Counted from the first letter of the stretch, positions 3,065 through 44,125 are shown. The stretch is DNA of 64,000 nt from Oceaniferula flava (GCF_016811075.1 NZ_JAFBGL010000004.1:186001-250000), one strand, 5' to 3'. Translations and numbers: made by a program. Notes: generated by a model from the sequence alone, not told the origin.

Positions 3065-3183
3065 AGCTAGGGCCGCATCATGCCGTGGATGCCTCCAGCG
3101 GCAAGTCAGGAATCCACCCAGCCCCATTCGCCTGCATGACCCGGATCGCCAATCGTCAACAAGGGACAAAACGCCAAGCAACT

Positions 3184-3732
3184 ATGAAATTACTCCACAC
3201 CCTCGCCATCCTCAGCCTCACCCTGATCACCGCCTCCGCAAACATTCACGACGACATCCGCCAGCTCAGCCGCGAGAAGTTCAAGCTTACACTGCAAACC
3301 GGCAAAATCTTCAGCAAACATCAACTCCACGAAAATGCAGAATATGAAAAACTGCAAAGCGCCTCCCTCGCTGCATCTCGCGAATACAACCAAACCCGAC
3401 GCGCCCACCCGACACTGAAGCCGCTCTATGCCAAAAGCGATGCCACCCAGAAAAAGATGATCCAAGCGAGAATGAATAAGGACAGGGAGGCCTCGAGCGC
3501 CGCCACCCGGGAGTTCACCCAGATTCGCATGGAAATCGAGAAAACCGCCGCTTCCATCCCCGAACTCAAGGCGGCCCAGCAAAAGGCCATCGACGCCAAT
3601 ACCGCCGCCGAGGCAAAGAAACTTGAACTGTTGCAAACCGTGCCGGAAGGCAAGGCCCACGCTGAGAAAATTGAGGCACTGGATGCCAAAATCACCGAGC
3701 TTCGCAAGCAGATGAAGTTGACCAAACCTTAG
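3184..3732 (+). CDS. Exported coiled-coil protein of unknown function
   Basis: 182 residues. The first 19 residues form a classical signal peptide (MKLLHTLAILSLTLITASA). The rest is charged, alanine- and lysine-rich, and shows long heptad-like helices, so a periplasmic coiled coil is likely. No catalytic motif is visible. It is convergent with dinB and the two stop codons overlap (TTAG shared by both strands at 3729-3732). The function is unknown. Confidence 0.7.
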   Translation: MKLLHTLAILSLTLITASANIHDDIRQLSREKFKLTLQTGKIFSKHQLHENAEYEKLQSASLAASREYNQTRRAHPTLKPLYAKSDATQKKMIQARMNKDREASSAATREFTQIRMEIEKTAASIPELKAAQQKAIDANTAAEAKKLELLQTVPEGKAHAEKIEALDAKITELRKQMKLTKP

Positions 3733-4921: not shown

Positions 4922-6040
4922 TCAGCCTAACGGCTCTTTTCTCAGTTCCCGCATGGAGTAAAGGCGGGGGTTCTTATTCTGCCAGCCGACACCACGCAGG
5001 CTCCTCGCTCCACTTTTTCGTTTCTCTCCGAAACGGTCGCGTGCGCCCTGAAAAACGCCTTCCACGAAGGCCTTGCTCCCGAAAACCATGCCGTCGCTGA
5101 AATAACGCACCCGGCAGCGCATGGATTCGCCCAATGTTAGTTTGCCTCCGCGACCTAACACCTTCTCGACTTCCTCGCGGCGAAAACCTTTCCTAACGCG
5201 TCGGGGTTTCCTCTGTTCCGGCATCTCTCCGCTGTGAAGCTCCTCGGCAAAGGCTTCCTCGCCATCGGCAAAAAGCATCATCCGGTAGCGCTCCGCCACG
5301 CCGTCATCCCATGGCAGACACACCTGTTCGGCATTGCCGTCAGCATCACGTTGCTGGTCAAAGGCATCCGCGCCAGCCAGCACTCGGCAAATTCCTTGGC
5401 GTGCCCGTTGGCCTCCCATCGGCTGCATCGCCTTGCCATAGGAACACCACTTGTAATCCTCCGGCCGCTCCACCATGCCTGCACGGATCGGGTTCAGATC
5501 GATGTAAGCCGCCATCACACGCGCCGCATACCCGTCCTGCACCAGCACACTCTTGAAGCGACCTTCCCACAAAGTCCCGCGCCGACCATGCGCTCCGTTA
5601 TACCACTGGGTAAACCGTTGCTTCAGCCCTTTCATGAACTCAGAAAGGTCGTGCATGCGACAGGTGTATTTCGCCTTGAATGCCTCCGCCGCCGCGTCAG
5701 CCCCCTGGCTGCGGAGCCGACCCATCATCTGCTCGATGTGCAGGTAATATGCCCCCGAATACATCCCCTTCATCCGCGCCAAGAAGTCCTCATCGGACAT
5801 CGCCACAGCAGCCCCCTTCACCTTCGGCGGAACCTCCACCAGCAAGTGGAAATGATTGCTCATGATACAATAGGAAAGCACCTGAACCCCGCAGAACTCC
5901 TCATATTCACGCATCATCTGCACAAACATATCCTTCTCGGCCCGTCCGAGAATAAACTGTCGATCCACCACACGCGAAATGCAGTGGTAGAGGCTGGAAT
6001 CAGTCTCCGCCGTGGGAGAAATGAAACGTGGCTGACGCAT
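4922..6040 (-). CDS. REP-associated tyrosine transposase (RAYT, Y1/HUH family)
   Basis: 372 residues, an HUH single-strand transposase of the IS200-like/TnpA-REP type. The metal-binding HUH motif is HFH at residues 63-65 (SNHFHLLVEVP). The candidate nucleophile is a tyrosine in QRFTQWYNGAHGRRGTLWEGRF, probably Tyr147. The family signature YIDLNPIRAGMV lies at about 179-190. The C-terminal 160 residues are basic, as in longer RAYTs that bind REP hairpins. The gene has no inverted terminal repeats, as expected for this domesticated family. Short REP-like repeats with the word CCTGTCCCTT lie upstream and between the next genes, and are the natural candidates for its substrate. The ATG at 6040 matches the family N terminus. 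Confidence 0.9.
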   Translation of the reverse strand: MRQPRFISPTAETDSSLYHCISRVVDRQFILGRAEKDMFVQMMREYEEFCGVQVLSYCIMSNHFHLLVEVPPKVKGAAVAMSDEDFLARMKGMYSGAYYLHIEQMMGRLRSQGADAAAEAFKAKYTCRMHDLSEFMKGLKQRFTQWYNGAHGRRGTLWEGRFKSVLVQDGYAARVMAAYIDLNPIRAGMVERPEDYKWCSYGKAMQPMGGQRARQGICRVLAGADAFDQQRDADGNAEQVCLPWDDGVAERYRMMLFADGEEAFAEELHSGEMPEQRKPRRVRKGFRREEVEKVLGRGGKLTLGESMRCRVRYFSDGMVFGSKAFVEGVFQGARDRFGEKRKSGARSLRGVGWQNKNPRLYSMRELRKEPLG

Positions 6041-6095
6041 GGCAATGACAAGTAATCATGTGAACACATAAAAGTCAATGCCTTTTCCTTACAGA

Positions 6096-6112
6096 AGGCC
6101 TGTCCCTTTATA
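6096..6112. repeat. REP-like repeat, copy a
   Basis: AGGCCTGTCCCTTTATA, sharing CCTGTCCCTT with copies at about 7079 and 7592. It lies just upstream of the transposase gene start. GGCC at its centre is part of a potential small hairpin. Confidence 0.55.
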
Positions 6113-6150
6113 CGTTCTCTATACGGTCTCTGTGATTTCAACGCCGCATC

Positions 6151-6186
6151 TGACCCCAGGATGACCCCTCTTCAGTTGCTGACCCC
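6151..6186. repeat. Three direct copies of TGACCCC
   Basis: TGACCCC occurs at 6151, 6162 and 6180, just downstream of the ankyrin gene and upstream of the transposase. Spacings are 11 and 18 bases. It may be a second REP-like or degenerate mobile-element end. Confidence 0.5.
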
Positions 6187-6188
6187 TT

Positions 6189-6995
6189 TCACTTGCCCTC
6201 TCCTTTCAAAATTTTTGTAATTCGTAATTTAATATCGGAAGGCAATTTGTGTTCCTCCCTGAAAAAATCTATCATATCGTCACCCATGCTTTCTCTATCT
6301 AAATTTGTAGGTTCCCATTCCATTTCTAAATAATCAAATGCAGTTTTACCATCATTGTCGCGCGCTAATGGATTAGCACCACTATCCACTAATAATTCAA
6401 CGCAATCGACGCTACCATATTGTGATGCCAACATTAACGGTGTGACACCTTGATCCTCTTCAAAATCAAATTTAGCACCATTCATCAACAAAACCTTAAG
6501 TGACTTTATTTTATTGTTCATTGCACAAAGATTAACACTTGATGCCTCAAGCCCAAAATCAATATTTGGATCTACCCCCATCAACAAGACATCTGGCAAC
6601 ATCTTGGCAATAGCACCATCATCAAAAGTACTTGAACATATAGCATATAAGGGTGAAATTTTATCATCATATAAAATATTTAAATCCCACCCCAGACTAT
6701 TAACATACTTCAACATATCTAAATTTGGCTCATTGGCCAACAGAACTATAAGCAAGTCTCGCTGCAACTTACCCTCGCGTAAAAAACGCTTTGCAGCATC
6801 AATCTCACCCAAATTGATGAGCTTTATAATCCTCTCCTCATCAACTAAATGCTCTTGTTTATTAGATAGGAAGTCATCATTAGAAATACTTTTGTTATGA
6901 ACAAATTTATATATAACAGAAAACGATAATCCAATTATCGATGCGGATACCAAAAAAAATAGAAACTTTCTGCATTTTAAACATTTGATCTTCAT
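6189..6995 (-). CDS. Membrane-anchored ankyrin-repeat protein
   Basis: 268 residues. The N terminus is a short basic, cysteine-containing segment followed by one transmembrane helix (about residues 11-32, FLFFLVSASIIGLSFSVIYKFV). Ankyrin-type repeats follow; the clearest are GVTPLMLASQYGSVDCVELLVDSGANPLARDNDGKTAF and the preceding helix pair. The repeats should lie on one side of the membrane and act in protein binding. Base composition is strikingly AT-rich compared with neighbours, a sign of recent transfer. The ATG at 6995 is chosen so that the membrane anchor follows directly; an upstream in-frame extension is cysteine-rich and runs over a repeat copy. Its partner is unknown. Confidence 0.8.
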   Translation of the reverse strand: MKIKCLKCRKFLFFLVSASIIGLSFSVIYKFVHNKSISNDDFLSNKQEHLVDEERIIKLINLGEIDAAKRFLREGKLQRDLLIVLLANEPNLDMLKYVNSLGWDLNILYDDKISPLYAICSSTFDDGAIAKMLPDVLLMGVDPNIDFGLEASSVNLCAMNNKIKSLKVLLMNGAKFDFEEDQGVTPLMLASQYGSVDCVELLVDSGANPLARDNDGKTAFDYLEMEWEPTNLDRESMGDDMIDFFREEHKLPSDIKLRITKILKGEGK

Positions 6996-7078
6996 AAAAC
7001 TGGTTTTTTTTAAGGCGCTGGCTTTGCAGGAACAAAAAAGCCAGGTGCTACTATTCCTCCAACGTTTTTGAATACAAT

Positions 7079-7099
7079 AGCAGCCCTGTCCCTTAATAC
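7079..7099. repeat. REP-like repeat, copy b
   Basis: Contains CCTGTCCCTTAATA, identical over 14 bases to copy c at about 7623. It lies between the ankyrin and lipoprotein genes. Confidence 0.55.
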
Positions 7100-7137
7100 A
7101 ATACATTACAAATCCACAATCCACGGACTCCCCCTCT

Positions 7138-7572
7138 TTACTGAATTCCCAGCTTATCCTCTATCAGCTTCCAACTCGCTTCTTTCAGTTCATAAGTTTT
7201 GCCAGATTGTCTTTTATAATCAGCTAAACCATCTCCGTTATCATCTTCATAAGTAATTTGTCGGCCATTTTGATCCCTAGTGACAATGAGGTTCATTTCA
7301 TTGATCCCCTTGATGTGCAACTTGACTGGGTAAATGTCAGGGATTCCAGTTTCTCGATTAATTTCCCCACACTGAAAAATATGCAATCCATCAGCATTCT
7401 GAGATATTAATAATTGCAACCCTCCATAACCTGCACCCTTCACCATAATTGCCTCCCCTTGACTCAAGGAGTAAACCTTTTTGCCGCCTAATGATTCCGC
7501 TGTGTCATGGTCGTGACAGGATGAGGAAACCGAGAAAATGCACAGCAAAAGAATAAATCGTAATTTCTTCAT
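7138..7572 (-). CDS. Small lipoprotein of unknown function
   Basis: 144 residues. A signal sequence of about 17 residues ends in a lipobox-like FSVSSSC, so Cys18 or a nearby Cys should be lipidated. The mature part contains a calcium-loop-like DDNGDGLADYKR stretch near residue 115, common in exported proteins. The start at 7572 is supported by a strong GGAGG six bases before the ATG. A longer open frame upstream only reads through the duplicated dinB fragment. It is less GC-rich than the core genes and sits inside the repeat-flanked accessory block. The function is unknown. Confidence 0.72.
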   Translation of the reverse strand: MKKLRFILLLCIFSVSSSCHDHDTAESLGGKKVYSLSQGEAIMVKGAGYGGLQLLISQNADGLHIFQCGEINRETGIPDIYPVKLHIKGINEMNLIVTRDQNGRQITYEDDNGDGLADYKRQSGKTYELKEASWKLIEDKLGIQ

Positions 7573-7591
7573 ACTACCTCCAATAATCAGC

Positions 7592-7637
7592 AAAATAACG
7601 ACAGGCCAGAAAATAACGACAGGCCTGTCCCTTAATA
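7592..7637. repeat. REP-like repeat, copy c, with a perfect 16-base direct repeat
   Basis: AAAATAACGACAGGCC occurs twice (7592-7607 and 7610-7625). The second copy runs into CCTGTCCCTTAATA and creates the 12-base palindrome GACAGGCCTGTC. It abuts the duplicated dinB segment directly, suggesting that the repeat marks a rearrangement joint. Confidence 0.7.
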
Positions 7638-7734
7638 GTCCCATATCGATGTGAATCAACTTCTTCATCACGGCGGAATCCCCCCTTCCGACAAAAGACT
7701 CTCCCACAGGAGAAAAAGGGCAAAGAAAATCGTG
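7637..7734 (-). pseudogene. Duplicated 5' fragment of dinB (right copy of direct repeat)
   Basis: The first nine codons of dinB (MKKLIHIDM) and its leader are repeated here. The reading frame then leaves the dinB sequence and enters the REP-like repeat, so no functional polymerase can be made. Three substitutions and three inserted bases separate it from 4742-4836. It is the right boundary of the transposase/ankyrin/lipoprotein block and could still act as a displaced promoter. Confidence 0.88.
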
Positions 7735-7920
7735 TATGTAATGGAGGGTGGACAAGCACAATCCAATTTCATCCCAATGGAAGAGTAGGAATGCACTGCA
7801 GTATAGCGCGAGTGGATTCCGGTTCATCAACTCTTGCAGTCGGTCTTGAGAGGCTCGCGCCCAAGATCAACTCTCTACCGAGTATTCGGCCTGATGGACG
7901 GAGGACCATCTAATTTCATT
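7735..7920. other. Gap between the dinB fragment and the flavoprotein gene
   Basis: Together with the preceding repeats this is the only gene-free stretch over 300 bases (7573-7956). No credible coding frame, RNA gene or terminator was seen in this part. It is probably decayed sequence of the accessory block. Confidence 0.5.
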
Positions 7921-7956
7921 CCCGTTGCAGCCCATGGACAGGAATGTCCATGCTCC
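7921..7956 (-). repeat. 36-bp hairpin repeat, copy A, adjoining a stop codon
   Basis: Identical over 36 bases to 9313-9348. The core is a perfect 8-bp hairpin, CATGGACA-GGAA-TGTCCATG. On the minus strand it begins directly after the stop codon of the flavoprotein gene, so it may act as a terminator or mRNA-end stabiliser. Confidence 0.85.
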
Positions 7957-9102
7957 TTAGTGGCGGAGCTTTCGGAGCTTCAGCTTTTGAACTAGCCATT
8001 GAACGCCTTTGTTTTGTTTCAATCTGTATACTAGGCCGGAACGGCTGGATGGATCTGCATACCACTTCCACGAACGGCTTGAGTGCGTGTCCGCTTCCTT
8101 TTTTTGGGCAAATTGATAGAACTCGTTGATCTCCTTGTGGTCGAAGGATTGGTTTTGAAACCAGCGCGGAACGAAGACATTGCATAACACATCGACATCG
8201 TTGAGCACCTTGGACAAGCCAGTTCCGGTGGTCGGGCTCACACTTTGATAGGCGTCACCGATGGCGACCACGCCATTGAGTTCGGGCGTTCGCATTTGGT
8301 AGAAATAAGTGGCAAACATCTCCACTTTGCTGATGAGCTGAAACGGATCTGTTAGTTTTTCCAAATCAGGGAAATACTTCTGCAACGCCGGATAGGTATT
8401 GTTTTTCAACTCCTTGACTCTTGGGTCGGAGCTTTTCAACTGCGTGAACACGTTGGCTCTCATCGTCTCGCCTATGCGAAAGATGGTGATGTAATCGATG
8501 CCGTTTTTATCCGGTTTGAGAAAGTAGCCGTAGGCATTGGAATCGAATGGCGACTGGTCGGGGCGTTCGATGTCGAAGCCGTAGGATATGGATGCCAGGT
8601 CTTTATCTTCTCGATATTGCACACCTCGTTTTTTCAACAATCCACTGCGATAACCTGATGCCACAATCACCAAGGGGGCGTGCAGTGGCTCCGCGTCAGC
8701 CAAGTGGATGATTTGCGATTGGGGATGTTCAGGGTCTTCCACGATGGACTCAACCTTGGCGACGCGGTATTCGACCAGCTTCGACACCTCCTGCCTCAAC
8801 TGGTTGATCGTATCGTGGTAACGGATGCCGTATTGCTCGACATCGTGGTGCTCAGTGATGCGGCCATCGTTGTAGTTCACATTGACCCCCAAGGGATCTG
8901 CCAGCGGTCGCCTCTGGGACAGGAGATCAAATTTCGCCAGAAGATCGATTTGATCTTTCTCCAGCTTCTCGGCGCGGAACACCGGGGGGGATTGTTTGAA
9001 GCGATCCACCAAGATCACCTGCAACCCCTGGGCGGCGAGCAATTTGGCTGAAATGCATCCAGCCATCCCTGCGCCAATAATCACAACATCTGCCGACTTC
9101 AT
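7957..9102 (-). CDS. FAD-dependent monooxygenase-like oxidoreductase
   Basis: 381 residues of the PHBH/squalene-epoxidase-like flavoprotein fold. The N terminus binds FAD (VVIIGAGMAGCISAKLL), and the second FAD motif is GVVAIGDAYQSVSPTTGTGLSKVLND near residue 285. No signal peptide or membrane segment is evident. The gene stands alone and is bracketed by two copies of the 36-bp hairpin repeat, one directly after its stop codon. GC content is lower than in the core genes. The substrate is unknown. Confidence 0.8.
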   Translation of the reverse strand: MKSADVVIIGAGMAGCISAKLLAAQGLQVILVDRFKQSPPVFRAEKLEKDQIDLLAKFDLLSQRRPLADPLGVNVNYNDGRITEHHDVEQYGIRYHDTINQLRQEVSKLVEYRVAKVESIVEDPEHPQSQIIHLADAEPLHAPLVIVASGYRSGLLKKRGVQYREDKDLASISYGFDIERPDQSPFDSNAYGYFLKPDKNGIDYITIFRIGETMRANVFTQLKSSDPRVKELKNNTYPALQKYFPDLEKLTDPFQLISKVEMFATYFYQMRTPELNGVVAIGDAYQSVSPTTGTGLSKVLNDVDVLCNVFVPRWFQNQSFDHKEINEFYQFAQKKEADTHSSRSWKWYADPSSRSGLVYRLKQNKGVQWLVQKLKLRKLRH

Positions 9103-34461: not shown

Positions 34462-34965
34462 TTATGCTTCTGCCTCAGCCTTGCGAGAGCCTAACTTATC
34501 GTTGAGATAAAGCAGGCCTGCGCTGTCGTCACCAATGCGATCTAACAAAGCGATGATATCCTCGATGCTCTTTTCCTCCTCCACTTGTTCGTCGAGGAAC
34601 CACTGCAGGTGGCTCTTGGTGGCGTGGTCGTTGAGCTTCAGCGCCAGCTCGTAAAGCTTATTGATCGAGCGGGTGTTCTCGATCTCGGTATCCAGCGCTT
34701 TTTTGAAGACTTGCAGCGGATTGCTGTAGCCGGTTTCCGGTGAAGGAATGGTGTTCAGCACCACCTTGCCACCGCGGTCCTGAAGGTATTGCAGCAGCCT
34801 CATGGCGTGGACTTTTTCCTCGTCCGACTGCATCATCATCCAGTTGGCAAATCCATCGAGGTTCTCGACGTCGAAGTATGTCGACATTCCGAGGTAGTTG
34901 TAGGAAGCGGTCAACTCCTGGTTGATCTGCTCGTTGATCGCGGCTTCGAGTTCTTCGTGAATCAT
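34462..34965 (-). CDS. ftnA: Ferritin (FtnA type)
   Basis: 167 residues, the usual length. Ferroxidase-centre residues are recognisable in NEQINQELTASYNY, SDEEKVHAMRLLQY, TEIENTRSINKLYE and FLDEQVEEEKSI. It assembles into a 24-subunit iron store in the cytoplasm. The start at 34965 (MIHEELEAAIN) matches the family N terminus. It follows a small cysteine protein by 49 bases, and a Fur-box-like palindrome lies upstream of that gene. The two are likely co-regulated by iron. Confidence 0.92.
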   Translation of the reverse strand: MIHEELEAAINEQINQELTASYNYLGMSTYFDVENLDGFANWMMMQSDEEKVHAMRLLQYLQDRGGKVVLNTIPSPETGYSNPLQVFKKALDTEIENTRSINKLYELALKLNDHATKSHLQWFLDEQVEEEKSIEDIIALLDRIGDDSAGLLYLNDKLGSRKAEAEA

Positions 34966-35014: not shown

Positions 35015-35215
35015 TTAAGCCACCACACGGAGACGTTCAATCTTGGGTAAGCGCGTGGCCAAGGGCACCGCCTTGCACAGGGCCTTCTTCGTATTCGCCA
35101 CGCGTGCGCACTTCTTACAAGCAAACTTCGGCTCCTCAGTGATCGCCGTCAATAGGTCGATGCGCTTGGCAATGTCCTTTTCCTTCCACTTGCACAATGA
35201 TTTCACTTTGGCCAT
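35015..35215 (-). CDS. Small cysteine-containing basic protein
   Basis: 66 residues, Lys/Arg-rich, with four cysteines: Cys8, the pair in FACKKCARVAN and Cys47. A small zinc- or Fe-S-binding protein is plausible. Similar short proteins with a KFxCKKC motif occur next to other genes in many bacteria, but I know of no function. It is followed by ferritin and probably shares its promoter. Confidence 0.65.
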   Translation of the reverse strand: MAKVKSLCKWKEKDIAKRIDLLTAITEEPKFACKKCARVANTKKALCKAVPLATRLPKIERLRVVA

Positions 35216-35223
35216 GTGACGCT

Positions 35224-35242
35224 AATGAGACTCAATCTCAAC
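35224..35242 (-). promoter_or_regulatory. Fur-box-like palindrome before the ferritin operon
   Basis: AATGAGACTCAATCTCAAC matches 15 of 19 positions of the Gram-negative Fur-box form AATGAGAATCATTCTCATT. The arms TGAGA and TCTCA are perfect. It lies 9-27 bases upstream of the start of the small cysteine protein that precedes ferritin. Iron-responsive control is inferred, not shown. Confidence 0.5.
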
Positions 35243-35324: not shown

Positions 35325-36362
35325 TCAAGCATCCACGCTATCCCCATCCTCAGAGGAGTCAGTGAGCATACGGGTATATGCTGGTGTGATTTTTTCATGA
35401 AAACCGGCACCTGCACGCGTGACGAAGCTGGCCGCGATGCCGTGCTGCTCGGCGCATTCGGCCCCCCGTGATTCACCCAAGACAAAAAGTGCCGTGGCCC
35501 AGGCGTCCGCCAGCATGCAGGTGGGCGCCAAAACGGAGACTGCCTGCAGCGCGCCGACCGCTGACCGCCCGGTGGCAGGATCGATCAGGTGGTGCGATTC
35601 ACCATCCTCCATCCGAATCCGCTGCTCGGCGATGCCGGAGGTGGCCAGAGAGATTCCGCAGAGCGCCGCCACGGTTTGCGCTTCGGCAGCTTGTTTTCCC
35701 ATCGGATCGAGAGCAACCCACCACGGCTGACCGTCCGGCTTGCATCCTTCGCCCCGGAACTCGCCACCGATTTCCAAGAGAAAATCATGGATGCCCAGTT
35801 GCTTCAGTCCGGCGGCGGCGTGATCGATGGCGTAGCCTTTGGCGATGGATGAGAGGTCGAGCTGACAGTGGCCAGCGTGTGATGCGCTGCCATCGGCACG
35901 CAGACTGAGATCGCGCCAGCTGCCACGCGTGTCCGGCATCTGCTCAGGAGCGCCGGCGTGCGGGCCGAAACCAGCGCCGGCGACAAGTCGGCCCACCGTG
36001 GGATCGTAAACTCCGTCTGTTAGTTTGGCAATTTCCAGAGCCTGCCGCAGCACAGCTCTAAATTCTGGCGACAGCTGAAACCGCTCCCCTGCCGGCGCCG
36101 CATTGAACCGACTCAGCTCCGACTCCGCATCCCAGTGGCTCATCTGCCGGATCACCAAGTCAAAGCTGAGCTCAGCCCGCCGGCGGATGTGGGTGGAGGA
36201 AATGTGTGGCGGCCGCTGGTAGTGCAGTCGCCAGTAGCTGCCCATGGTCTCACCTTCTAACAACACCACCTCCAAGCCGGAGTTGGCACCGCGCAGGTGA
36301 TCGAGCGTCAGGTCCGTGGGGATCAGAACCTGGCGCTCGTTCGGCGGCTGTGGAGAAGCCAT
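35325..36362 (-). CDS. apbE: FAD:protein FMN transferase (ApbE)
   Basis: 345 residues. ApbE landmarks: GETMGSYWRLHY, DLSSIAKGYAIDHAAAGL, LLEIGGEFRGEG, HHLIDPATGRSAVG and LADAWATALFVLGES. It links FMN from FAD to threonine or serine in exported proteins. There is no obvious signal peptide or lipobox, so export is uncertain; the true start might differ. It is the last gene of a leftward series with PepSY, DUF2271 and DUF4198 proteins. The DUF2271 protein carries a plausible target motif (DGVSGPT). Confidence 0.92.
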   Translation of the reverse strand: MASPQPPNERQVLIPTDLTLDHLRGANSGLEVVLLEGETMGSYWRLHYQRPPHISSTHIRRRAELSFDLVIRQMSHWDAESELSRFNAAPAGERFQLSPEFRAVLRQALEIAKLTDGVYDPTVGRLVAGAGFGPHAGAPEQMPDTRGSWRDLSLRADGSASHAGHCQLDLSSIAKGYAIDHAAAGLKQLGIHDFLLEIGGEFRGEGCKPDGQPWWVALDPMGKQAAEAQTVAALCGISLATSGIAEQRIRMEDGESHHLIDPATGRSAVGALQAVSVLAPTCMLADAWATALFVLGESRGAECAEQHGIAASFVTRAGAGFHEKITPAYTRMLTDSSEDGDSVDA

Positions 36363-36389
36363 AAATATCTGCTGATACTGGCTTTCCCC

Positions 36390-37205
36390 TTATTCAGGAA
36401 GGACTTCTAGGGTGACAGCGTAGGTGGCGTAATCGTAGAGGGGAGCTCCGTCGAGCTCGCCGCTTTTCTTCTCGATCACTGCTTCCATCCAGTAGCGACC
36501 CGCTTCTTTCAAGGTGATTGAAAACTTCCCTTCGGAGTCGGTTTTGATTTTGATTTCCTCCGGATCGTTACGGAATCGATCACCTCCCTTGATCAACACC
36601 ACGTCCACCTCGGGAGCGGGTTTTCCGTTGAGGTGCATGGTGAAGGTTGCCTTTTCACCGGCGAAGAGATCGTTCGGATGGGTATCGGTCACTACAAGCT
36701 CAAGCCCTTTGCCGAGTGGTTTCAGAGCTTCCTTGTTAGGCTTTCCAGCGGTGACGAACGTAGCGGTGCGGCGGATGTAATTGTAGATGCCGACGTCTGG
36801 TTTCTTGGTAATACCTTCGGCCTTCAGCTTCGCCATATCGCCGCGCCAGCGTTTGTTCTCACCGTCCTCTTTCCAGTGCGCACTAATGCCCGAGCGCAAA
36901 CCGTAAATCTGATAGGAGCCCTCCTTGGCAAGTTCCAGATCGAAGGTGCTGCGGAGTTTTCCGGTGCTGGGATTCTGCAGTGTCACAGGTTTCCCATCCG
37001 GCCCAACGGCCACCAAGGGATCGGTGGGTAGCGGAACGTAGTTAGGGAAAAACAGGTTGTTAGAGACGCAGGCATCAAAGGTGACCCATGGGCTTTCTCC
37101 TGAAAGCACCGTGGTCGATGGCAGAATCCACACCCGGTGAGCGTGGGCCAAGTGACTGGCCAGAGCCAGAACAGCGGCAGCGAGAAGACAGGGTTTCAAT
37201 TTCAT
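36390..37205 (-). CDS. Exported DUF4198 protein, paralogue 2
   Basis: 271 residues with a signal peptide ending near LAHA, followed immediately by HRVWILPST, a DUF4198 start that leaves a histidine at the mature N terminus. The middle contains FAGEKATFTMHLNGKPAPEVDVVLIKGGDRFRNDP, and KFSITLKEAGRYWMEA marks the last beta-sandwich. It is a close paralogue of the next upstream gene. DUF4198 proteins are periplasmic and associated with metal uptake. The N-terminal histidine could help bind a metal. Confidence 0.85.
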   Translation of the reverse strand: MKLKPCLLAAAVLALASHLAHAHRVWILPSTTVLSGESPWVTFDACVSNNLFFPNYVPLPTDPLVAVGPDGKPVTLQNPSTGKLRSTFDLELAKEGSYQIYGLRSGISAHWKEDGENKRWRGDMAKLKAEGITKKPDVGIYNYIRRTATFVTAGKPNKEALKPLGKGLELVVTDTHPNDLFAGEKATFTMHLNGKPAPEVDVVLIKGGDRFRNDPEEIKIKTDSEGKFSITLKEAGRYWMEAVIEKKSGELDGAPLYDYATYAVTLEVLPE

Positions 37206-37224
37206 GATAAACCGAGGTTAAAGA

Positions 37225-38046
37225 TTACTCGGGGAGCACCTCGAGGGTGGCGGTGTAGGAGGAGCGTTTGGAAAGCGGCACGCCGTCGATTTCGCCGCCG
37301 TCTGCGGAAACACTGGCATTGATCCAGTAGCGCCCCGCCTCTTTCCAAGTGATGGAGAACTCACCCTTCTCGTTGGTGGTCACTTTGACCTCGCCGGCAT
37401 CGTTGCGGAAGCGATCGTTGCCTTTGACCAGAGTGACTTCCGTCGCTGCGGCTGGCTTGCCATTGAGATGCAGGGTGAAGGTGGCTTCCTCACCGGCGAA
37501 AAGATCGTTTGGATGGTTGTGGGTGAAGACGATTTCCAAGCCCTTGCCAGTGGGCTTCAGGGCTTCTTTGTTAGGCTTGCCGGAGGTCACGAAGGTGACC
37601 ACGCGCGAGACGTTCTCGGAGAGGCGGACGCCTTCTTTTTTCGCCAACCCTTCCTTGGCCAACTCCTCGGCGGTGCCGCGCCAGCGTTTGCGCTCGTCGC
37701 CCTCTTTCCACATCGCAGACAGTCCGTCGCGACCGGAAAAAATCTGATACGTCCCCTCCTGGCTGAGTTCCAAATCGAAGGTGCTGCGGAAGTGGCCTTG
37801 GCTGGCATTTTGGATGCTCGCTGCTTTGCCGTCAGGCCCAATCACTTGCACTGATTCGGGGTCGACTCCGCGGTGGTTGGCAAAGAAGAGGTTGTTCGAT
37901 ACCGCGGCGTCAAAGGTCACCCAGGTGTTCTCTCCGGAGAGCACGGTGGTGGATGGCAACAGCCAAGCGCGGTGGGACAAGGCGGGCTGAATGGCGCAGC
38001 CGATCAGGGCGGTGGCGAGGGCGGTGGTCTTGATGGTTTTTTTCAT
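37225..38046 (-). CDS. Exported DUF4198 protein, paralogue 1
   Basis: 273 residues, a tandem paralogue of the downstream gene along its whole length (shared HRxWxLPSTTVLSGE, NNLFF, RSTFDLEL, GRYW). The signal peptide ends near ALS with HRAWLLPST following, so the mature protein would again start with His. It probably arose by gene duplication inside the operon. Gaps to its neighbours are 16 and 19 bases. A metal-binding periplasmic role is inferred. Confidence 0.85.
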   Translation of the reverse strand: MKKTIKTTALATALIGCAIQPALSHRAWLLPSTTVLSGENTWVTFDAAVSNNLFFANHRGVDPESVQVIGPDGKAASIQNASQGHFRSTFDLELSQEGTYQIFSGRDGLSAMWKEGDERKRWRGTAEELAKEGLAKKEGVRLSENVSRVVTFVTSGKPNKEALKPTGKGLEIVFTHNHPNDLFAGEEATFTLHLNGKPAAATEVTLVKGNDRFRNDAGEVKVTTNEKGEFSITWKEAGRYWINASVSADGGEIDGVPLSKRSSYTATLEVLPE

Positions 38047-38062
38047 GATTTGTTAGGTTTTA

Positions 38063-38581
38063 CTATTTCGATTTCGCTTCGATGGGAGTGACGCTGACCT
38101 CACCGAGTTCGGATTTTCCAGTGGCCTTCTCGGCGCTGAGTTTCTTGCCATCCCAGCTGAAGGGGATTTTTACCAACTCACGTCCGCCAACTTCGCGGGA
38201 GGCTTCGACGACGAGGGTGTATTTCCCACCGGCGAGTGGTGGCAATTTCGCCAGTGCCTCGGTGATGGCAAATTTGTGTTTCCCCGGTGGGCGGGTGGGA
38301 CCGCTGACGCCATCGACTGGCATGTCCAGCTCCCGACCTGAACGACGCCACCACTGGCGCAGGTCCTTGAGCCACTTCTCGCCTTCGTCGTTTTTCATCT
38401 CGGTGTCATAGCAGACGGTGAGGTTGGCGACGTGGCTGCGGTCGGCGTTTTCAATCCATGCGGCGACGTAGGGCCGATGGTATTCTGAGACTTTCAGGCG
38501 CGGGATTTCGACTTCGAGCTGATAGCCTTGGGCGTGCACGGCAGTGGCTCCGCCGAGGAGAAGCAGGGTGGATTTTTTCAT
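38063..38581 (-). CDS. Exported DUF2271 protein, candidate flavoprotein
   Basis: 172 residues. Signal peptide about 17 residues (MKKSTLLLLGGATAVHA). The DUF2271 domain contains QLEVEIPRL, RPYVAAWIENADR and HVANLTVCYDTEM. Residues 90-96, DGVSGPT, resemble the ApbE flavinylation motif D-x-x-S/T-G-A-T/S, with Pro in place of Ala. Thr96 would carry the FMN. ApbE is encoded in the same gene series. Likely role: periplasmic electron carrier between the PepSY membrane protein and an iron substrate. Confidence 0.82.
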   Translation of the reverse strand: MKKSTLLLLGGATAVHAQGYQLEVEIPRLKVSEYHRPYVAAWIENADRSHVANLTVCYDTEMKNDEGEKWLKDLRQWWRRSGRELDMPVDGVSGPTRPPGKHKFAITEALAKLPPLAGGKYTLVVEASREVGGRELVKIPFSWDGKKLSAEKATGKSELGEVSVTPIEAKSK

Positions 38582-38596
38582 AATGGATAGATGCTG

Positions 38597-39253
38597 TTAG
38601 TGGACAAAAAAGATAACAAGGAGAATGGGCACCAAAATGCCAGCGGCGACGATTGGCCAGGTGCTCGGGCGGCGTTTGGCATGCACCCAGAGCAGCACCA
38701 GACCGGTGAGGCAGAAGATCACACAGGCGCCGGAAAAGATATCGAGAAACCACGACCATGCCTTGCCGGTGTGGCGACCCTTGTGCAGATCGTTGAGGTA
38801 GGAAATGACACCACGATCGGTGTGTTCGTAGGTGAACTCGCGGGTTTCGCGGTCGATCATCAGCCAGGCATCGCCACCGGGGCGTGGCATGCTGAGGTAG
38901 ATCTCATACTCGGACCACTCGGCATCGCGACCTTTCAGCGGGGCGCCGATCTCCTTGCCCAGGTGGGCGGCGACATCGGACGGCAGTGGCTTTTTTTCAT
39001 CCTCCGCCTCTTCCTGATAGGCGATGCCTGCGGAGATGGACTCGGGGACTTCGCCGCTTTTTTCCGTCACCTCAGGCTCTGCGGGGATATCCGCGGCGTG
39101 GTTCAGGGTGATGCCGGTGAAGGCAAAGAGCAGCATGGCAAACAGACAAATCGCACTGCTGACCCAGTGCCAGAGATAGAATTGTTTGGTCCAGAACGCC
39201 TTCTTACGGCGTTTCTTCGGCCGTGGTGTTGGCGATGGTTCTGTGCTGCTCAT
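38597..39253 (-). CDS. PepSY-associated transmembrane protein
   Basis: 218 residues. A basic N terminus, first helix about 27-50 (FYLWHWVSSAICLFAMLLFAFTGITLNH), a periplasmic PepSY domain (about 60-165) and two C-terminal helices (about 170-218). The histidines near the helix ends (LWHW, LNH, DLHKGRH) are placed like haem ligands in PepSY-type ferric reductases. It probably carries electrons across the inner membrane to the exported DUF2271/DUF4198 proteins. The start is 15 bases upstream of DUF2271. Confidence 0.82.
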   Translation of the reverse strand: MSSTEPSPTPRPKKRRKKAFWTKQFYLWHWVSSAICLFAMLLFAFTGITLNHAADIPAEPEVTEKSGEVPESISAGIAYQEEAEDEKKPLPSDVAAHLGKEIGAPLKGRDAEWSEYEIYLSMPRPGGDAWLMIDRETREFTYEHTDRGVISYLNDLHKGRHTGKAWSWFLDIFSGACVIFCLTGLVLLWVHAKRRPSTWPIVAAGILVPILLVIFFVH

Positions 39254-39280
39254 GGGCGTAGTTAACCGTAGGCTCTCAAC

Positions 39281-39302
39281 GAATCAAGTGATTCAAGTGA
39301 TG
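39281..39302. promoter_or_regulatory. Palindrome and direct repeat before the PepSY gene
   Basis: GAATCA-AG-TGATTC is a perfect 6-bp inverted repeat, and TCAAGTGAT occurs twice in a row. It lies 28 bases upstream of the PepSY start and is a candidate operator for the PepSY-ApbE operon. Confidence 0.4.
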
Positions 39303-39366
39303 ATATCTCGCGGGATTGATCTGGGGATGAATGCGGGGTGATGCGGTGGAAAAGACTTGGGCAAAT

Positions 39367-39401
39367 AACCCCACGCGCGACGCGAAGTCGCACGCAGGGT
39401 T
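39367..39401 (-). terminator. Hairpin after the siderophore receptor gene
   Basis: A 15-base stem with a few mismatches or wobbles (AACCCCACGCGCGAC / GTCGCACGCAGGGTT) and a 5-base loop. The T-run is poor, so it may attenuate rather than stop transcription into the PepSY gene. Confidence 0.55.
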
Positions 39402-39415
39402 AGCTTACACACCAA

Positions 39416-41557
39416 TCAGAAGCTGTATTTCACCGAGACCGTGGCGGTGCGGCCTGCGCCAGGGATGAAGTGACCACCACCGACCTGATCCACGTAGTCC
39501 TCGTCGGTGAGGTTGGTGACGTTGAGCTGCAGGGAGACGTCTTCGTTCACCTGATAGGAGGCAAAGGCATCGTAGGTGGTGTAGGATGGAGCGATACGAC
39601 CTCTACCGTTATCACGATCCCCCACGTAGCGAATGCCACCTCCGATCGTGAGATCATCGGTGAGATCATAGGTGGTCCAGATGGAGAACGAGTGCTCGGG
39701 GGTGTTGCCAATCGTGCCACCTTCGAGGCTCGGATCCGGATCGCTCTTCTGCTCGCCATCGAGGTAGGTGTAGCCAGCGAAGACACTCCACTTATCGGTG
39801 ATCTTACCGGTCAGGCCCAGCTCGACACCCTGCACTTGGATGTCGCCTTCTAACACGGTGTCACCCGTGCTGGGATCGGTGGTGCGGGCGTTGGTTTTGT
39901 TGGTTTTGAAAATCGCTGCGTTGAAACCGATGCGATCGTCCATCCAGGTCCACTTCGTTCCCAGCTCCCAGGTTTCCGATTCTTCAGGGTCGAGTCCCAG
40001 GTTGGCATTGCCCCGGCCGAAGGAAAGCGCCTCCGCCGATGGGTTCACCGAAGTGCCGTAGGCGAAGTAAATCGTTCCATTCTCCGCTGGTTTGTAGGAA
40101 ACCGATGAGCGCCAGCTGACGAAGTTATCGACTTGCGACGCGTCACCAATTTCGGCATCGAAGTTATCATAGCGCAGCCCTCCGTTGAACGACCACTGGT
40201 CATTGAACTTGATGGTATCGTAGAGGAAAAATCCAATCGTGCTCGTGCGGGCCACCGTGGTGCCGGTGCTCGAGTAAGTAGAGGTATCGACGCCGTGCGC
40301 ATCCGGATCGTAGAGGTCGGTGCCAGGGGCTCCGGAATCGTCCGAGGTGCGGCCTTCGTTGACATCTTTTTCCCAGGTGTAATCAGCCCCGGCGATCAGC
40401 GTGTGTTCCCAGCCACCGGTCTTGAAGCGGTAGTTGAGATCGAAGGCCAAGGCTGTAGTCGTGGTGGTCTGCAGGCGGAACTTCTCATCGGTGCGACGCA
40501 CATCGTAGGGGTCCGCAGTGGTGCTATCCAGACGTGGCGCGGTGATCAGGGAGTCGCGATGGTTGCGACCGTAGCGAGCGATGGCACGCAGGTCCAAGTC
40601 CGCATTGACGCTGTGCTTCACCTCGGCGGTGAAAATATCGGTGTCCACGTGGGAATAATCGCGATCGATGAGGCCATACCAGTTGTTAAAATCGACACCG
40701 GATGGCACCTCATTGTTCACCCATGGAATGCCGTAGTCCGGCATGTTATCGGCCGACATGTGCATGTAGCTGAGGGTGGTGACGGTGTCCGTTCCCAAAC
40801 CAAACGCGATGGACGGAGCGATCCCCCAGCGTTCGTTTTCCACCCAATCACGACCGGAATTCGAGGCAGAGTGACCGAGCAGGTTGAGGCGGAATGCGGA
40901 GGTCTCGGAGAGCGGCTGGTTCCAATCGAGGGTGACGCGGTAGAAGTCATCGGTGCCCACGCCGAATGTTAGATCGCGGAGTTGCTCCAGCTTCGGAGTC
41001 TTGGTGGCGAGGTTGATCGAGCCGCCGGTGGAGCCGCGTCCGGTGTCCGTGGAGCCGGGGCCTTTGGAAACTTCGATTTGCTCGTAGTTGAACGGGTCGC
41101 GTGTGTAGCCGCCGATGTCGCGGATGCCATCGATGAAGAAATCCGTGCGGGCATCGAAACCACGCAGGGTCAGCTGATCGCCGGCAGGAGTTCCGCCTTC
41201 GCCCGCTTGCAGGGAAATCCCCGGCACGTTGCGCAGGGCATCCGCGATGGTGGTGGCGTTCTGCTGCTTGATCAGCTCTTCAGGCACCACGGTGATGGTG
41301 CGTGGGATCTCACTTAGCGGGGCCGGGTATTTTGGGGAGGCCAGCTTGGTTGGGTTCAGCTTGCTGCCTTCGGTGGCATTGATCACGGAAGGATCGAGCT
41401 GGCCGTCGTCGTCGCTATCGGACTCGGCTGCGCCGGCCCCTCCTGCCATGAGCATGGCTCCGGCGATGCTTCCTGCGGTGGCGTATTGACCAAAAATCGA
41501 CGCCTGGCGTAGGCTGCGCGGCGACTGTAAACCGTTTCTCTGTTCGTTATGTTTCAT
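39416..41557 (-). CDS. TonB-dependent siderophore receptor
   Basis: 713 residues with a long signal sequence (about 44 residues). The plug domain is present (LSEIPRTITVVPEELIKQQ, DALRNVPGISLQAGEGGTPAGDQLTLRGFDARTDFFIDGIRD) and the barrel ends in the usual aromatic residue (VSVKYSF). The sequence resembles catecholate/hydroxamate receptors such as Fiu or FhuE. No N-terminal signalling domain is present. It should import ferric siderophore across the outer membrane. The ATG at 41557 gives the signal sequence; it lies 13 bases after the FMN oxidase gene, so both are probably one transcript. No Fur box was recognised in front of this pair. Confidence 0.9.
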   Translation of the reverse strand: MKHNEQRNGLQSPRSLRQASIFGQYATAGSIAGAMLMAGGAGAAESDSDDDGQLDPSVINATEGSKLNPTKLASPKYPAPLSEIPRTITVVPEELIKQQNATTIADALRNVPGISLQAGEGGTPAGDQLTLRGFDARTDFFIDGIRDIGGYTRDPFNYEQIEVSKGPGSTDTGRGSTGGSINLATKTPKLEQLRDLTFGVGTDDFYRVTLDWNQPLSETSAFRLNLLGHSASNSGRDWVENERWGIAPSIAFGLGTDTVTTLSYMHMSADNMPDYGIPWVNNEVPSGVDFNNWYGLIDRDYSHVDTDIFTAEVKHSVNADLDLRAIARYGRNHRDSLITAPRLDSTTADPYDVRRTDEKFRLQTTTTTALAFDLNYRFKTGGWEHTLIAGADYTWEKDVNEGRTSDDSGAPGTDLYDPDAHGVDTSTYSSTGTTVARTSTIGFFLYDTIKFNDQWSFNGGLRYDNFDAEIGDASQVDNFVSWRSSVSYKPAENGTIYFAYGTSVNPSAEALSFGRGNANLGLDPEESETWELGTKWTWMDDRIGFNAAIFKTNKTNARTTDPSTGDTVLEGDIQVQGVELGLTGKITDKWSVFAGYTYLDGEQKSDPDPSLEGGTIGNTPEHSFSIWTTYDLTDDLTIGGGIRYVGDRDNGRGRIAPSYTTYDAFASYQVNEDVSLQLNVTNLTDEDYVDQVGGGHFIPGAGRTATVSVKYSF

Positions 41558-41570
41558 GTTTCGTAGGTAG

Positions 41571-42668
41571 TTAGAAATGGGATGAGTGGGAGAGGATGGC
41601 GGGCGCTTCACTGAGGTCACGGCATCCGGTGAGCAGCATCGCGACTTCCAGCTCGTGCTGGAGAAGCTTGAGAACGTGGGCGACTCCGGCCGCTCCGGCG
41701 GTGGTCAGTCCGTGTAAGATGGGGCGGCCTAACAGCACCGCATCAGCGCCCAGTGCCAGCGCCTGCAGAACATCGCTGCCGCAGCGAATGCCACCGTCCA
41801 CCAGCACTGGCACCTTCTTTTCCACCGCCGCGACGATGTGTGGCAGGGCGCTGCGTGTGGCGGGCAGTTGGTCGAGGGTTCGGCCGCCGTGGTTCGAAAC
41901 GATGAGGCCGTCGGCGCCGTGATCGATCGCCTCGACCGCATCCGCCGGGTGCAGGATGCCTTTGATAAAAATCGGCAAGGTGGTGAGCTCCCTTAGCCAA
42001 GCGACATCCTGCCAGCTGGGAATGGCCGCGAGCAATGCGGGGTCAAAGGCAGAGGCCGACTGCGGCGGCGCGGGTAAATCGCGCAAGTTGACCGCCTCCA
42101 CGGCATCCGACAGGCGGAAGCCAGATCGCTGCTCGGCATTGCGGATGCCGTGCACCGGAGCATCCACGGTGAGCACAATCGCCTCGTAACCGGCCTGCTC
42201 CACACGGCGGATCAGCTGCTTGGTAAAATCTTTGTCGTGCTGAATGTAGAGCTGGAACCACAGCGGGGTGCCGTCCGCCTGATTGGCAATATCCTCCACC
42301 GAGGTGCTCGCCTGGGTGCTGACGATGTAGGGGGTGCGCAGCGCGCTGGCGGCAGTGGCGGTCGCGATTTCGCCCTCGGGGTGGAATAGCTTGTGGTAGG
42401 CCGTGGGGCCAATCAGCAAAGGGCTGGCCAGCCGGCGGTTCAGGATCGTGGTCCGGGTGTCCGCGTGATCAAACTTCCGCAGCACCCGCGGCCAGAGCGA
42501 CGCCTCACCCCAGGCCTCGGTATTCGCTCTGAGCGTGCGTTCACTCCCTGCCCCACCATTGAGGTAGGCGAGGTTTTGGGCCGAGAGGCGTTTACTAGCG
42601 AGACGTTGGTAGTCGGCTAGGGAAACGGCGTCGGCGGGAATAACTCCCTGGTGGGTGGCATCGGTCAT
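41571..42668 (-). CDS. FMN-dependent alpha-hydroxyacid oxidase/dehydrogenase
   Basis: 365 residues, family of lactate dehydrogenase LldD and glycolate oxidase. Signature segments: AYLNGGAGSERTLRANTEAW, TPLWFQLYI, LPIFIKGILHPADAV, VSNHGGRTLDQLPA with the catalytic histidine, and VDGGIRCGSDVLQALALGADAVLLGRP for the FMN phosphate. It oxidises a small 2-hydroxyacid; which one is unclear. It is cytoplasmic. Its place directly before a siderophore receptor is unusual. It may provide electrons or process a hydroxyacid siderophore part. Confidence 0.9.
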   Translation of the reverse strand: MTDATHQGVIPADAVSLADYQRLASKRLSAQNLAYLNGGAGSERTLRANTEAWGEASLWPRVLRKFDHADTRTTILNRRLASPLLIGPTAYHKLFHPEGEIATATAASALRTPYIVSTQASTSVEDIANQADGTPLWFQLYIQHDKDFTKQLIRRVEQAGYEAIVLTVDAPVHGIRNAEQRSGFRLSDAVEAVNLRDLPAPPQSASAFDPALLAAIPSWQDVAWLRELTTLPIFIKGILHPADAVEAIDHGADGLIVSNHGGRTLDQLPATRSALPHIVAAVEKKVPVLVDGGIRCGSDVLQALALGADAVLLGRPILHGLTTAGAAGVAHVLKLLQHELEVAMLLTGCRDLSEAPAILSHSSHF

Positions 42669-42769: not shown

Positions 42770-44125
42770 CTATTCCTGTTTAAGGAAAATGCGTTTCTCT
42801 TTGTAGGTAATCACCGCGTAAGTCTCACGCAGGAAATCGGCACCGAAGAGGCCGACGTAGTCGAGGCCCGAGTCAAAACGATCGAGATCTGTAGCGAGGA
42901 TTTTGCGTTTGCGGAATACCGCTTTCCCCAGAGAAACCGAGTCCACATCGGTGGCAGCTGCAGGTGCTTTGCCGCCGACACCCCAAACTTCCTTGGTCAT
43001 CGAGCCGACTTTGGCGCCGTGTTCCTTCGCCGCATCAATGTGCAGCAGGGAGTTGTCCGCTCCAGTGTCGATCATCCAGGTGACGTCGTTGTCGTTGAGT
43101 TTGCCATCGACAAATATATGGTTGCCGCGGCGCTCATATTCGAAGCTTAGGTATTGACGCAGCTCCAGCAGCTCGTTGATTGTTAGACTACGGCAATGAC
43201 GCAGGAAGGTGGCACGGGCCTCCGTCCAGCTGATGACGTAGGCGGCATCCTCAGGTGAGAGCAGGGAAATAGGGACCTGCACGTTTTTGCCATTTTGCTG
43301 AGCAATGGTCGCCACGGTGGATGTCTTGGAGGCGATCAATCCACGGTAGATTTTGCCGCGTTTGGTTTTGAAAATACGGAAGCTCAGTGCGTCTTCGGAG
43401 GTGTCACCCTCGGTCTCGTTAACGTCTGATCGATCCGGGCGGATGAACAATTTGCGCTCGCGGTAGGTGATCACCGCTTCGAGGTCGGAGAGGACTTCAG
43501 CGCCTAACAAACCATCGTCGCGCACCTTGGCTCCGGGGGCCATATCCTTAGCCATGTCGGTGGCCATGATCTGACGATCTTTGAAAACCGCCTCACCGAC
43601 CTTGAATTCATCCACCTGAGCGAGAGCTGCCGGGGCTTCGCCGGAGACGCCGTAAACTTTGTAATCGAATGGCCCGAGCGCCGCGCCGACGCGTTTGCAG
43701 GCGCCGGTGTGCAGCAGGCTGCTGCCGGCACCGGTATCGAGCACCATCTTGGCCGGCTTGCCATTGATTTCGAGCTGCACCATCATCGTGTTCCCCTCGA
43801 GCTTGATCGGAATAGCCTCGTAGCCACGCAGGGTGAGCAGCTCACCAACGGAGAGACTGCGGCACTCGCGCAGGAACACTGCCTTGGCCTTATTCCAGCT
43901 TTTGACGTAGGATCGATCGTCCTCGGACAAAGTGGTCAGCGGCACCGTAGCCCGTTTGCCATTTTCTAACAAAAACACCACCGCCGTCTCATTTTTATCG
44001 ACGATCACGGCACTGATCGAGTTGCCATTGGTGGCCGTGAACTTGCGATATTCGATCCCCTCTTTCGCGGTGGCGGTGAAGGGCAGGAACAAACAAGCAG
44101 CAGCGATGAGGGTTGTTAGTTTCAT
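42770..44125 (-). CDS. Exported double SHD1/retropepsin-like aspartic protease
   Basis: 451 residues with a signal peptide (about 20 residues). The chain is a tandem duplication. Each half has an SHD1 domain (about 26-80 and 249-302) and a retropepsin-like domain: first with MVLDTGAGSSLL (Asp130) and GLLGAEVL near 205, second with MIDTGADNSLL (Asp353) and GLFGADFL near 425. Retropepsins normally need two chains; here two catalytic aspartates in one chain could form an internal pseudodimer like pepsin. It is probably periplasmic. It lies 22 bases downstream of another SHD1 protein gene. The substrate is unknown. Confidence 0.85.
   Translation of the reverse strand: MKLTTLIAAACLFLPFTATAKEGIEYRKFTATNGNSISAVIVDKNETAVVFLLENGKRATVPLTTLSEDDRSYVKSWNKAKAVFLRECRSLSVGELLTLRGYEAIPIKLEGNTMMVQLEINGKPAKMVLDTGAGSSLLHTGACKRVGAALGPFDYKVYGVSGEAPAALAQVDEFKVGEAVFKDRQIMATDMAKDMAPGAKVRDDGLLGAEVLSDLEAVITYRERKLFIRPDRSDVNETEGDTSEDALSFRIFKTKRGKIYRGLIASKTSTVATIAQQNGKNVQVPISLLSPEDAAYVISWTEARATFLRHCRSLTINELLELRQYLSFEYERRGNHIFVDGKLNDNDVTWMIDTGADNSLLHIDAAKEHGAKVGSMTKEVWGVGGKAPAAATDVDSVSLGKAVFRKRKILATDLDRFDSGLDYVGLFGADFLRETYAVITYKEKRIFLKQE

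Follow-up and report, generated by a model that had tools for sequence, protein, structure and literature searches.

Clusters in which genes for PepSY, DUF2271, DUF4198, and ApbE proteins stand together have been reported with a link to iron, and 231 of these clusters have a TonB receptor (Meheust 2021, PMC8238504). Flavinylation by ApbE was shown for another DUF2271 protein, and the published acceptor motif of DUF2271 is [S/T]GA[S/T] (PMC8238504). The Caulobacter cluster CCNA_03155-03159 is repressed by Fur (PMC3751524), and PepSY/DUF2271 affects fitness under iron chelation and matters in ethylenediaminetetraacetic acid (EDTA) (PMC12004947). Another described system is the conserved receptor-oxygenase pair cciT-cciO: 68% of the CciT genes have an adjacent oxygenase partner, and the top neighbours of the pair are PepSY and Sel1-repeat proteins, with an oxidase using flavin mononucleotide (FMN) unmentioned (PMC12004947, PMC12004943). 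It was proposed that the imported siderophore is metabolised by PiuC (PMC12004943). In this study, we analysed a stretch of 64,000 nucleotides (nt) from Oceaniferula flava (GCF_016811075.1 NZ_JAFBGL010000004.1:186001-250000), which is hereafter called the window as a whole. A Pfam search of the window proteins found, between 42668 and 35325 on the minus strand, genes for an FMN_dh oxidase, a TonB receptor, a PepSY_TM_like_2 protein, a DUF2271 protein, two DUF4198 proteins, and ApbE.

This is a known kind of iron-uptake and membrane iron-reduction cluster, and its novel part is the oxidase clade at its head, which is apparently undescribed and tied to one iron receptor and usually its PiuC. A literature search, in which subscription journals were thinly covered, found no published description of the oxidase with the receptor or PiuC. 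In our preferred reading, to which we give a probability of roughly one half, the seven genes form two head-to-tail iron-uptake modules, oxidase-receptor and PepSY-DUF2271-DUF4198x2-ApbE, with the oxidase acting on the imported ligand. The genes are as follows.

41571..42668, minus strand: FMN-dependent alpha-hydroxyacid oxidase/dehydrogenase, 365 amino acids (aa), predicted to be cytoplasmic, at the head of a predicted two-gene unit with the receptor (FMN_dh, 1.4e-124)
39416..41557, minus strand: TonB-dependent receptor, PiuA/PiuD/Fiu/CciT family (TonB barrel, 9e-60; TIGR01783 above cut-off; solved relatives)
38597..39253, minus strand: PepSY_TM_like_2 membrane protein (PF16357, 6.7e-77; PF03929, 4e-11; alignment)
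38063..38581, minus strand: DUF2271 protein, predicted to be exported, with the candidate FMN acceptor Thr96 in DGVSGPT (PF10029, 7e-48)
37225..38046, minus strand: DUF4198 copy a, predicted to be exported, with a signal-like N-terminus (PF10670, 5.5e-48)
36390..37205, minus strand: DUF4198 copy b, predicted to be exported (PF10670, 3.4e-50)
35325..36362, minus strand: ApbE, flavin adenine dinucleotide (FAD):protein FMN transferase, without signal peptide (PF02424, 7.4e-64)

The oxidase belonged to the FMN hydroxyacid oxidase family (PF01070) by its profile and by conserved catalytic residues, and no signal peptide was found in it. Residues Y35, Y141, D169, K236, H260, and R263 were invariant in the alignment of its clade, and we take them to be equivalent to the catalytic residues of glycolate oxidase. 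The enzyme shares its fold family and the catalytic Tyr, Tyr, Asp, Lys, His, and Arg with glycolate oxidase, lactate oxidase, and the L-lactate dehydrogenase LldD/LldA, whereas it lies in a separate supported clade at iron-receptor operons and scores under the curated cut-offs of the named enzymes. With 258 bits against a cut-off of 550 for LldD/LldA and 250 bits against 645 for L-lactate oxidase (TIGR02708), both assignments were rejected.

When the oxidase alignment was scanned against 84,980 species genomes, 80 loci were kept, giving 76 usable FMN_dh relatives. PiuC was next to or near the oxidase in 19 of the 76, together with the receptor in 18 and alone in one; outside the family, this PiuC-to-oxidase rate carries the bias of a scan that began from the oxidase. 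The PiuC-bearing loci were found in Aquabacterium, Thiothrix, Leptothrix, Zoogloea, Zhongshania, Simplicispira, Pseudomonas, Pusillimonas, Brachymonas, Comamonas, Acidovorax, Novosphingobium, Nitrosomonas, Acinetobacter, Methylophilus, and unnamed Gammaproteobacteria. In the tree, all receptor- or PiuC-linked oxidases fell into one clade of 35 rows with a support of 100/99. Counting only the rows chosen by the oxidase itself, PiuC stood beside the oxidase in 19 of 21 inside the clade versus 0 of 55 outside it (Fisher p = 5e-16). Furthermore, the PiuC and oxidase genes often overlap or nearly touch: four loci have a gap of -4 nt, two of -1, and one of +1 (Zoogloea, Pseudomonas, Pusillimonas, Novosphingobium, Brachymonas, and Acinetobacter), which suggests that the two may be translationally coupled.

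The best solved relatives of the receptor were 5fok, 5nec, 5fp1, and Fiu (6bpm), with E values of 8e-155 to 3e-107 versus 5e-49 for the next families, and we take the first three to be PiuA/PiuD structures. As judged from these matches, the receptor is of the PiuA/PiuD/Fiu/CciT type. In several relatives, the gene lying between oxidase and receptor encodes a PiuC/YbiX-type 2-oxoglutarate (2OG)-Fe(II) oxygenase. O. flava itself has a second receptor-PiuC-oxidase set at C1:405178-409500, which holds the only PiuC of the genome, and in a further genome (G009), an oxidase-receptor-PiuC triplet lies unlinked to the PepSY core, its members sharing 63, 65, and 70% identity with queries from the window or the family. 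Compared with cciT-cciO, piuA-piuC, and fiu-ybiX, the receptor family is the same and PiuC/CciO is beside the receptor and the oxidase in the C1 set and in most relatives, whereas the FMN oxidase is added as a third conserved partner and the window locus is without PiuC. The full combination with PepSY-DUF2271-DUF4198 was also observed in Pseudomonas, Acidovorax, and Novosphingobium; ApbE was present at the latter two loci, and none was seen in the Pseudomonas locus, which is incomplete. The gene combination of the window recurs in a phylum other than its own, which we infer to be Verrucomicrobiota.

In the first module, a ferric chelate would be imported by the PiuA/Fiu/CciT-type receptor, and the oxidase would be a dedicated cytoplasmic enzyme acting on the imported organic ligand. 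PiuC/CciO, the third partner in most relatives, would most likely hydroxylate the ligand first, and the oxidase would then convert the resulting or a native alpha-hydroxyacid group to a keto acid, so that the chelator would be weakened, recycled, or consumed. A hydroxyacid oxidase conserved in the same operon appears to constrain the chemistry: either the imported ligand or the product of PiuC would be expected to contain an alpha-hydroxyacid. Siderophore antibiotics such as cefiderocol enter through the receptor-oxygenase system (PiuC/CciO/YbiX being the oxygenase), and the oxidase clade may provide a concrete clue to the intracellular breakdown of the receptor cargo. A more tentative proposal, against which the odds still lie, is that this clade supplies a third enzyme that the PiuA/Fiu-PiuC pathway has been missing, so that hydroxylation followed by keto-acid formation would free iron in the cytoplasm, in parallel to the periplasmic reduction by flavin and haem.

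The main rival explanation takes the oxidase for a general enzyme of L-lactate or glycolate metabolism in an iron-regulated operon: as FMN enzymes do without iron, it could stand in for iron-sulphur-dependent lactate enzymes when iron is limiting, and it would leave the siderophore untouched. LldA of P. aeruginosa is induced by low iron, for which its authors made the same iron-sparing argument (PMC11389411), and the nearest solved relatives of the window oxidase are lactate and hydroxyacid oxidases. However, the clade is distinct from the LldD type, with scores under both curated lactate cut-offs, and its association is with a single receptor/oxygenase pair, where genes overlap, and not with iron genes at large. 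On balance, we consider this explanation unlikely.

With respect to the arrangement of the locus, the original prediction had described a single leftward series. All seven genes are present in that order on the minus strand with strong Pfam matches, whereas a single transcription unit is improbable: the seven genes are probably two units, because a gap of 162 nt with a G+C-rich hairpin (approximately 39367-39401) parts the receptor from PepSY. A terminator scan did not flag this hairpin, and the scan performed no better than on shuffled sequences. The receptor open reading frame (ORF) as listed begins with a GTG at 41620, within the oxidase gene; the ATG at 41557, which is 13 nt past the oxidase stop, is a better start. 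The prediction had also regarded the PepSY/DUF2271/DUF4198/ApbE combination as already known, which is the case, including the TonB receptor (PMC8238504), and a role in iron assimilation of a flavinylation-type cluster beside a siderophore-type receptor is likely.

Conservation of this core was compared among 117 genomes of the same family. DUF2271 was above the Pfam cut-off in 12 of them, O. flava included, and the order PepSY-DUF2271-DUF4198 was kept in 10 of the 11 other loci, usually with ApbE, the odd one being a divergent version (L040). The original prediction was to fail if the oxidase were absent from this site in all relatives; FMN_dh was within 10 kb of the core in 5 of the 10 conserved loci (L031, L034, L035, L037, and L041) where approximately 0.05 was expected (p below 1e-7), so it is not absent everywhere and a chance neighbourhood of oxidase and core is ruled out. 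The duplication of DUF4198, put forward as a new feature, also held: copies a and b were approximately 58-60% identical, copy a was 70% identical to the single DUF4198 of G009, and no second DUF4198 gene was found in any other family locus examined.

In the second module, a haem-bearing PepSY protein would hand electrons to the periplasmic DUF2271 protein, possibly bearing FMN, which would reduce Fe(III) in the periplasm; Fe(II) would then enter via FeoB, which is encoded in the O. flava genome, and a neighbouring ferritin would store the iron. The mark of PepSY-like flavinylation clusters is a PepSY-like protein (PF03929/PF16357) no more than five genes away from ApbE or DUF2271, together with a predicted signal peptide in at least one of the ApbE, FMN-bind, DUF2271, and DUF3570 genes. 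In the window, the PepSY protein lies within that distance and DUF2271 begins with a short hydrophobic stretch that resembles a signal peptide (MKKSTLLLLGGATAVHAQG). As in the clusters of Meheust 2021, of which Caulobacter CCNA_03155-03159 is an example, PepSY, DUF2271, DUF4198, and ApbE are grouped, whereas the window has two DUF4198 genes, an SGPT motif, an ApbE without signal peptide, and a linked FMN oxidase and ferritin; moreover, it lacks a protein with a nicotinamide adenine dinucleotide (NAD)-binding domain, in contrast to the Caulobacter cluster with its flavoprotein reductase. Like FoxB and HiuB, the PepSY ferri-siderophore reductases (PMC12424826), the PepSY membrane protein has conserved His residues and stands beside a TonB receptor, whereas it is of the short PF16357 type with DUF2271, DUF4198, and ApbE as partners. 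Residues His29, His52, and His157 were invariant in the family alignment, which is consistent with their being haem ligands.

Covalent binding of FMN is less secure than the original prediction held, and DUF2271 is for now best not classed as a demonstrated flavinylation substrate. Thr96 was invariant in 15 aligned sequences; the published motif [S/T]GA[S/T] was not found in the window protein, which has SGPT, and SGPT or SSPT occurs across the family. The motif SGAT is kept in the Pseudomonas and Novosphingobium loci. The DUF2271 protein of the Acidovorax locus (3051-3569) has TQPT as its acceptor motif, indicating that a proline at this site is not confined to the family of the window. The predicted model of DUF2271 had a mean predicted local distance difference test score (pLDDT) of 68 with a poorly predicted acceptor loop and was left unused. 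The closest solved relatives of ApbE were 6nxi, 5mgy, and E. coli ApbE (2o18). Neither a signal peptide nor a lipidation site was found in the window ApbE, which has no in-frame upstream extension, and a signal peptide was also missing in all family members and at L032, L033, L035, L039, L041, and the Acidovorax (L081) and Novosphingobium (L084) loci. The two other ApbE proteins of O. flava have hydrophobic N-termini. Because ApbE is without signal peptide and DUF2271 is predicted to be exported, DUF2271 would have to be flavinylated before export, or ApbE would have to enter the periplasm by an unrecognised route. The proline variant and the signal-less ApbE may probe how far the flavinylation rules extend.

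These features would also fit a second module without covalent flavin, in which the PepSY haems reduce iron or the siderophore directly, DUF2271 and DUF4198 serve in binding, and ApbE has another target. The replacement of [ST]GA[ST] by SGPT/SSPT and the missing signal peptide of ApbE agree with this explanation, as does the fact that FoxB-type PepSY reductases work without such partners (PMC12424826). However, the genes for ApbE and DUF2271 remain associated across the family, the acceptor Thr96 does not vary, SGAT is retained at two of the loci outside it, and another DUF2271 is flavinylated by ApbE (PMC8238504). We regard a module without covalent flavin as doubtful.

Downstream of apbE, three further features were found that were not part of the original prediction.

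35226..35240, strand unassigned: Fur-like box TGAGACTCAATCTCA, with apbE on one side and the four-Cys ORF and ferritin on the other (pattern match)
35015..35215, minus strand: ORF of 66 aa with four Cys, conserved (recurs in family genomes)
34462..34965, minus strand: ferritin, 167 aa from the ATG (PF00210, 4.5e-41)

The box pattern (TGAGANTNANTCTCA) had three perfect sites in the 3.95-Mb genome: the one in the window, one in the receptor-piuC gap on C1, 41 nt before piuC, and one away from iron genes. Across 12 genomes, perfect boxes were observed at a divergent PepSY/oxidase promoter (G034), at PepSY (G011), and at receptor/piuC promoters (G019, G036, and the C1 set), and a reversed control pattern gave no sites in these 12 genomes. 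With a box model trained on sites outside the examined loci, the C1 site excepted, the upstream regions of 14 of 20 receptor, 8 of 18 piuC, and 3 of 11 PepSY genes scored at the threshold of 12 or above, and 38 sites were found over 480 kb of loci versus 6 after shuffling. The box is presumably bound by Fur. A box with one mismatch (TGAGACTCAAACTCA) precedes an operon at C7:103881-110500 with genes for a ferric ATP-binding cassette (ABC) transporter, labelled FbpA/FbpB-like from the translations, beside a Fur-family gene. The four-Cys ORF, which starts 11 nt downstream of the window box, occurred in 18 of the 117 genomes of the family, and in several of these it is directly preceded by a Fur-like box. 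The loci concerned are the own locus, L150, L151, L152, L154, L157, and L160; its neighbour is ferritin in three of them (own, L150, and L151), and in L160 it is a Dps-like gene. No family name was found for this protein, which is possibly a small iron-regulated metal-binding protein.

Several observations weigh against two modules with an oxidase acting on the ligand. The window locus has no piuC, although this is no defining failure for the receptor class because the published pairing is not universal (68%). Of the 35 clade members, four (L057, L061, L068, and L076) lack both receptor and PiuC in their vicinity, and 6 of 16 family PiuC loci have no near oxidase, so the oxidase is not an obligatory partner of PiuC. 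A sequence search of the PDB with PepSY gave nothing meaningful, and a fold search of the PDB with its model (pLDDT 85.5) gave no significant match and no FoxB-like fold; as the fold search was unsupportive, it is family membership and the conserved His residues that argue for the haem path. No Fur-like box was found within three mismatches at the window oxidase-receptor or PepSY promoters, and in the window the box occurs only between apbE and ferritin.

Two further explanations concern the partner of the oxidase. The enzyme may make 2OG or another 2-oxo acid for the neighbouring oxygenase and not act on the ligand, as enzymes of the PiuC family depend on 2OG and the piuC gene often overlaps that of the oxidase; we judge this improbable, since 2OG is already an abundant central metabolite and the window locus lacks PiuC. 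The coupling favoured by the original prediction, in which the oxidase feeds hydroxyacid electrons into a flavin-based envelope chain, has in its favour the adjacent genes and the common use of FMN, but it is very improbable and was rejected as the main reading because the signal-less oxidase segregates with receptor and PiuC and not with PepSY/DUF2271, which are absent or elsewhere in G009, the C1 set, and most Pseudomonadota loci.

The window also encodes, at 42770-44125 on the strand of the oxidase and upstream of it, a protein with two domains of the aspartyl-protease type (gag-asp_proteas/Asp_protease_2) that matched SHD1 weakly. Positions 6001-8000 of the window form a low-G+C island (0.41 versus about 0.57), which adjoins a putative REP-type (Y1) transposase ORF (4922-6040) and an ankyrin-repeat-like ORF (6189-7124), both as judged by eye.

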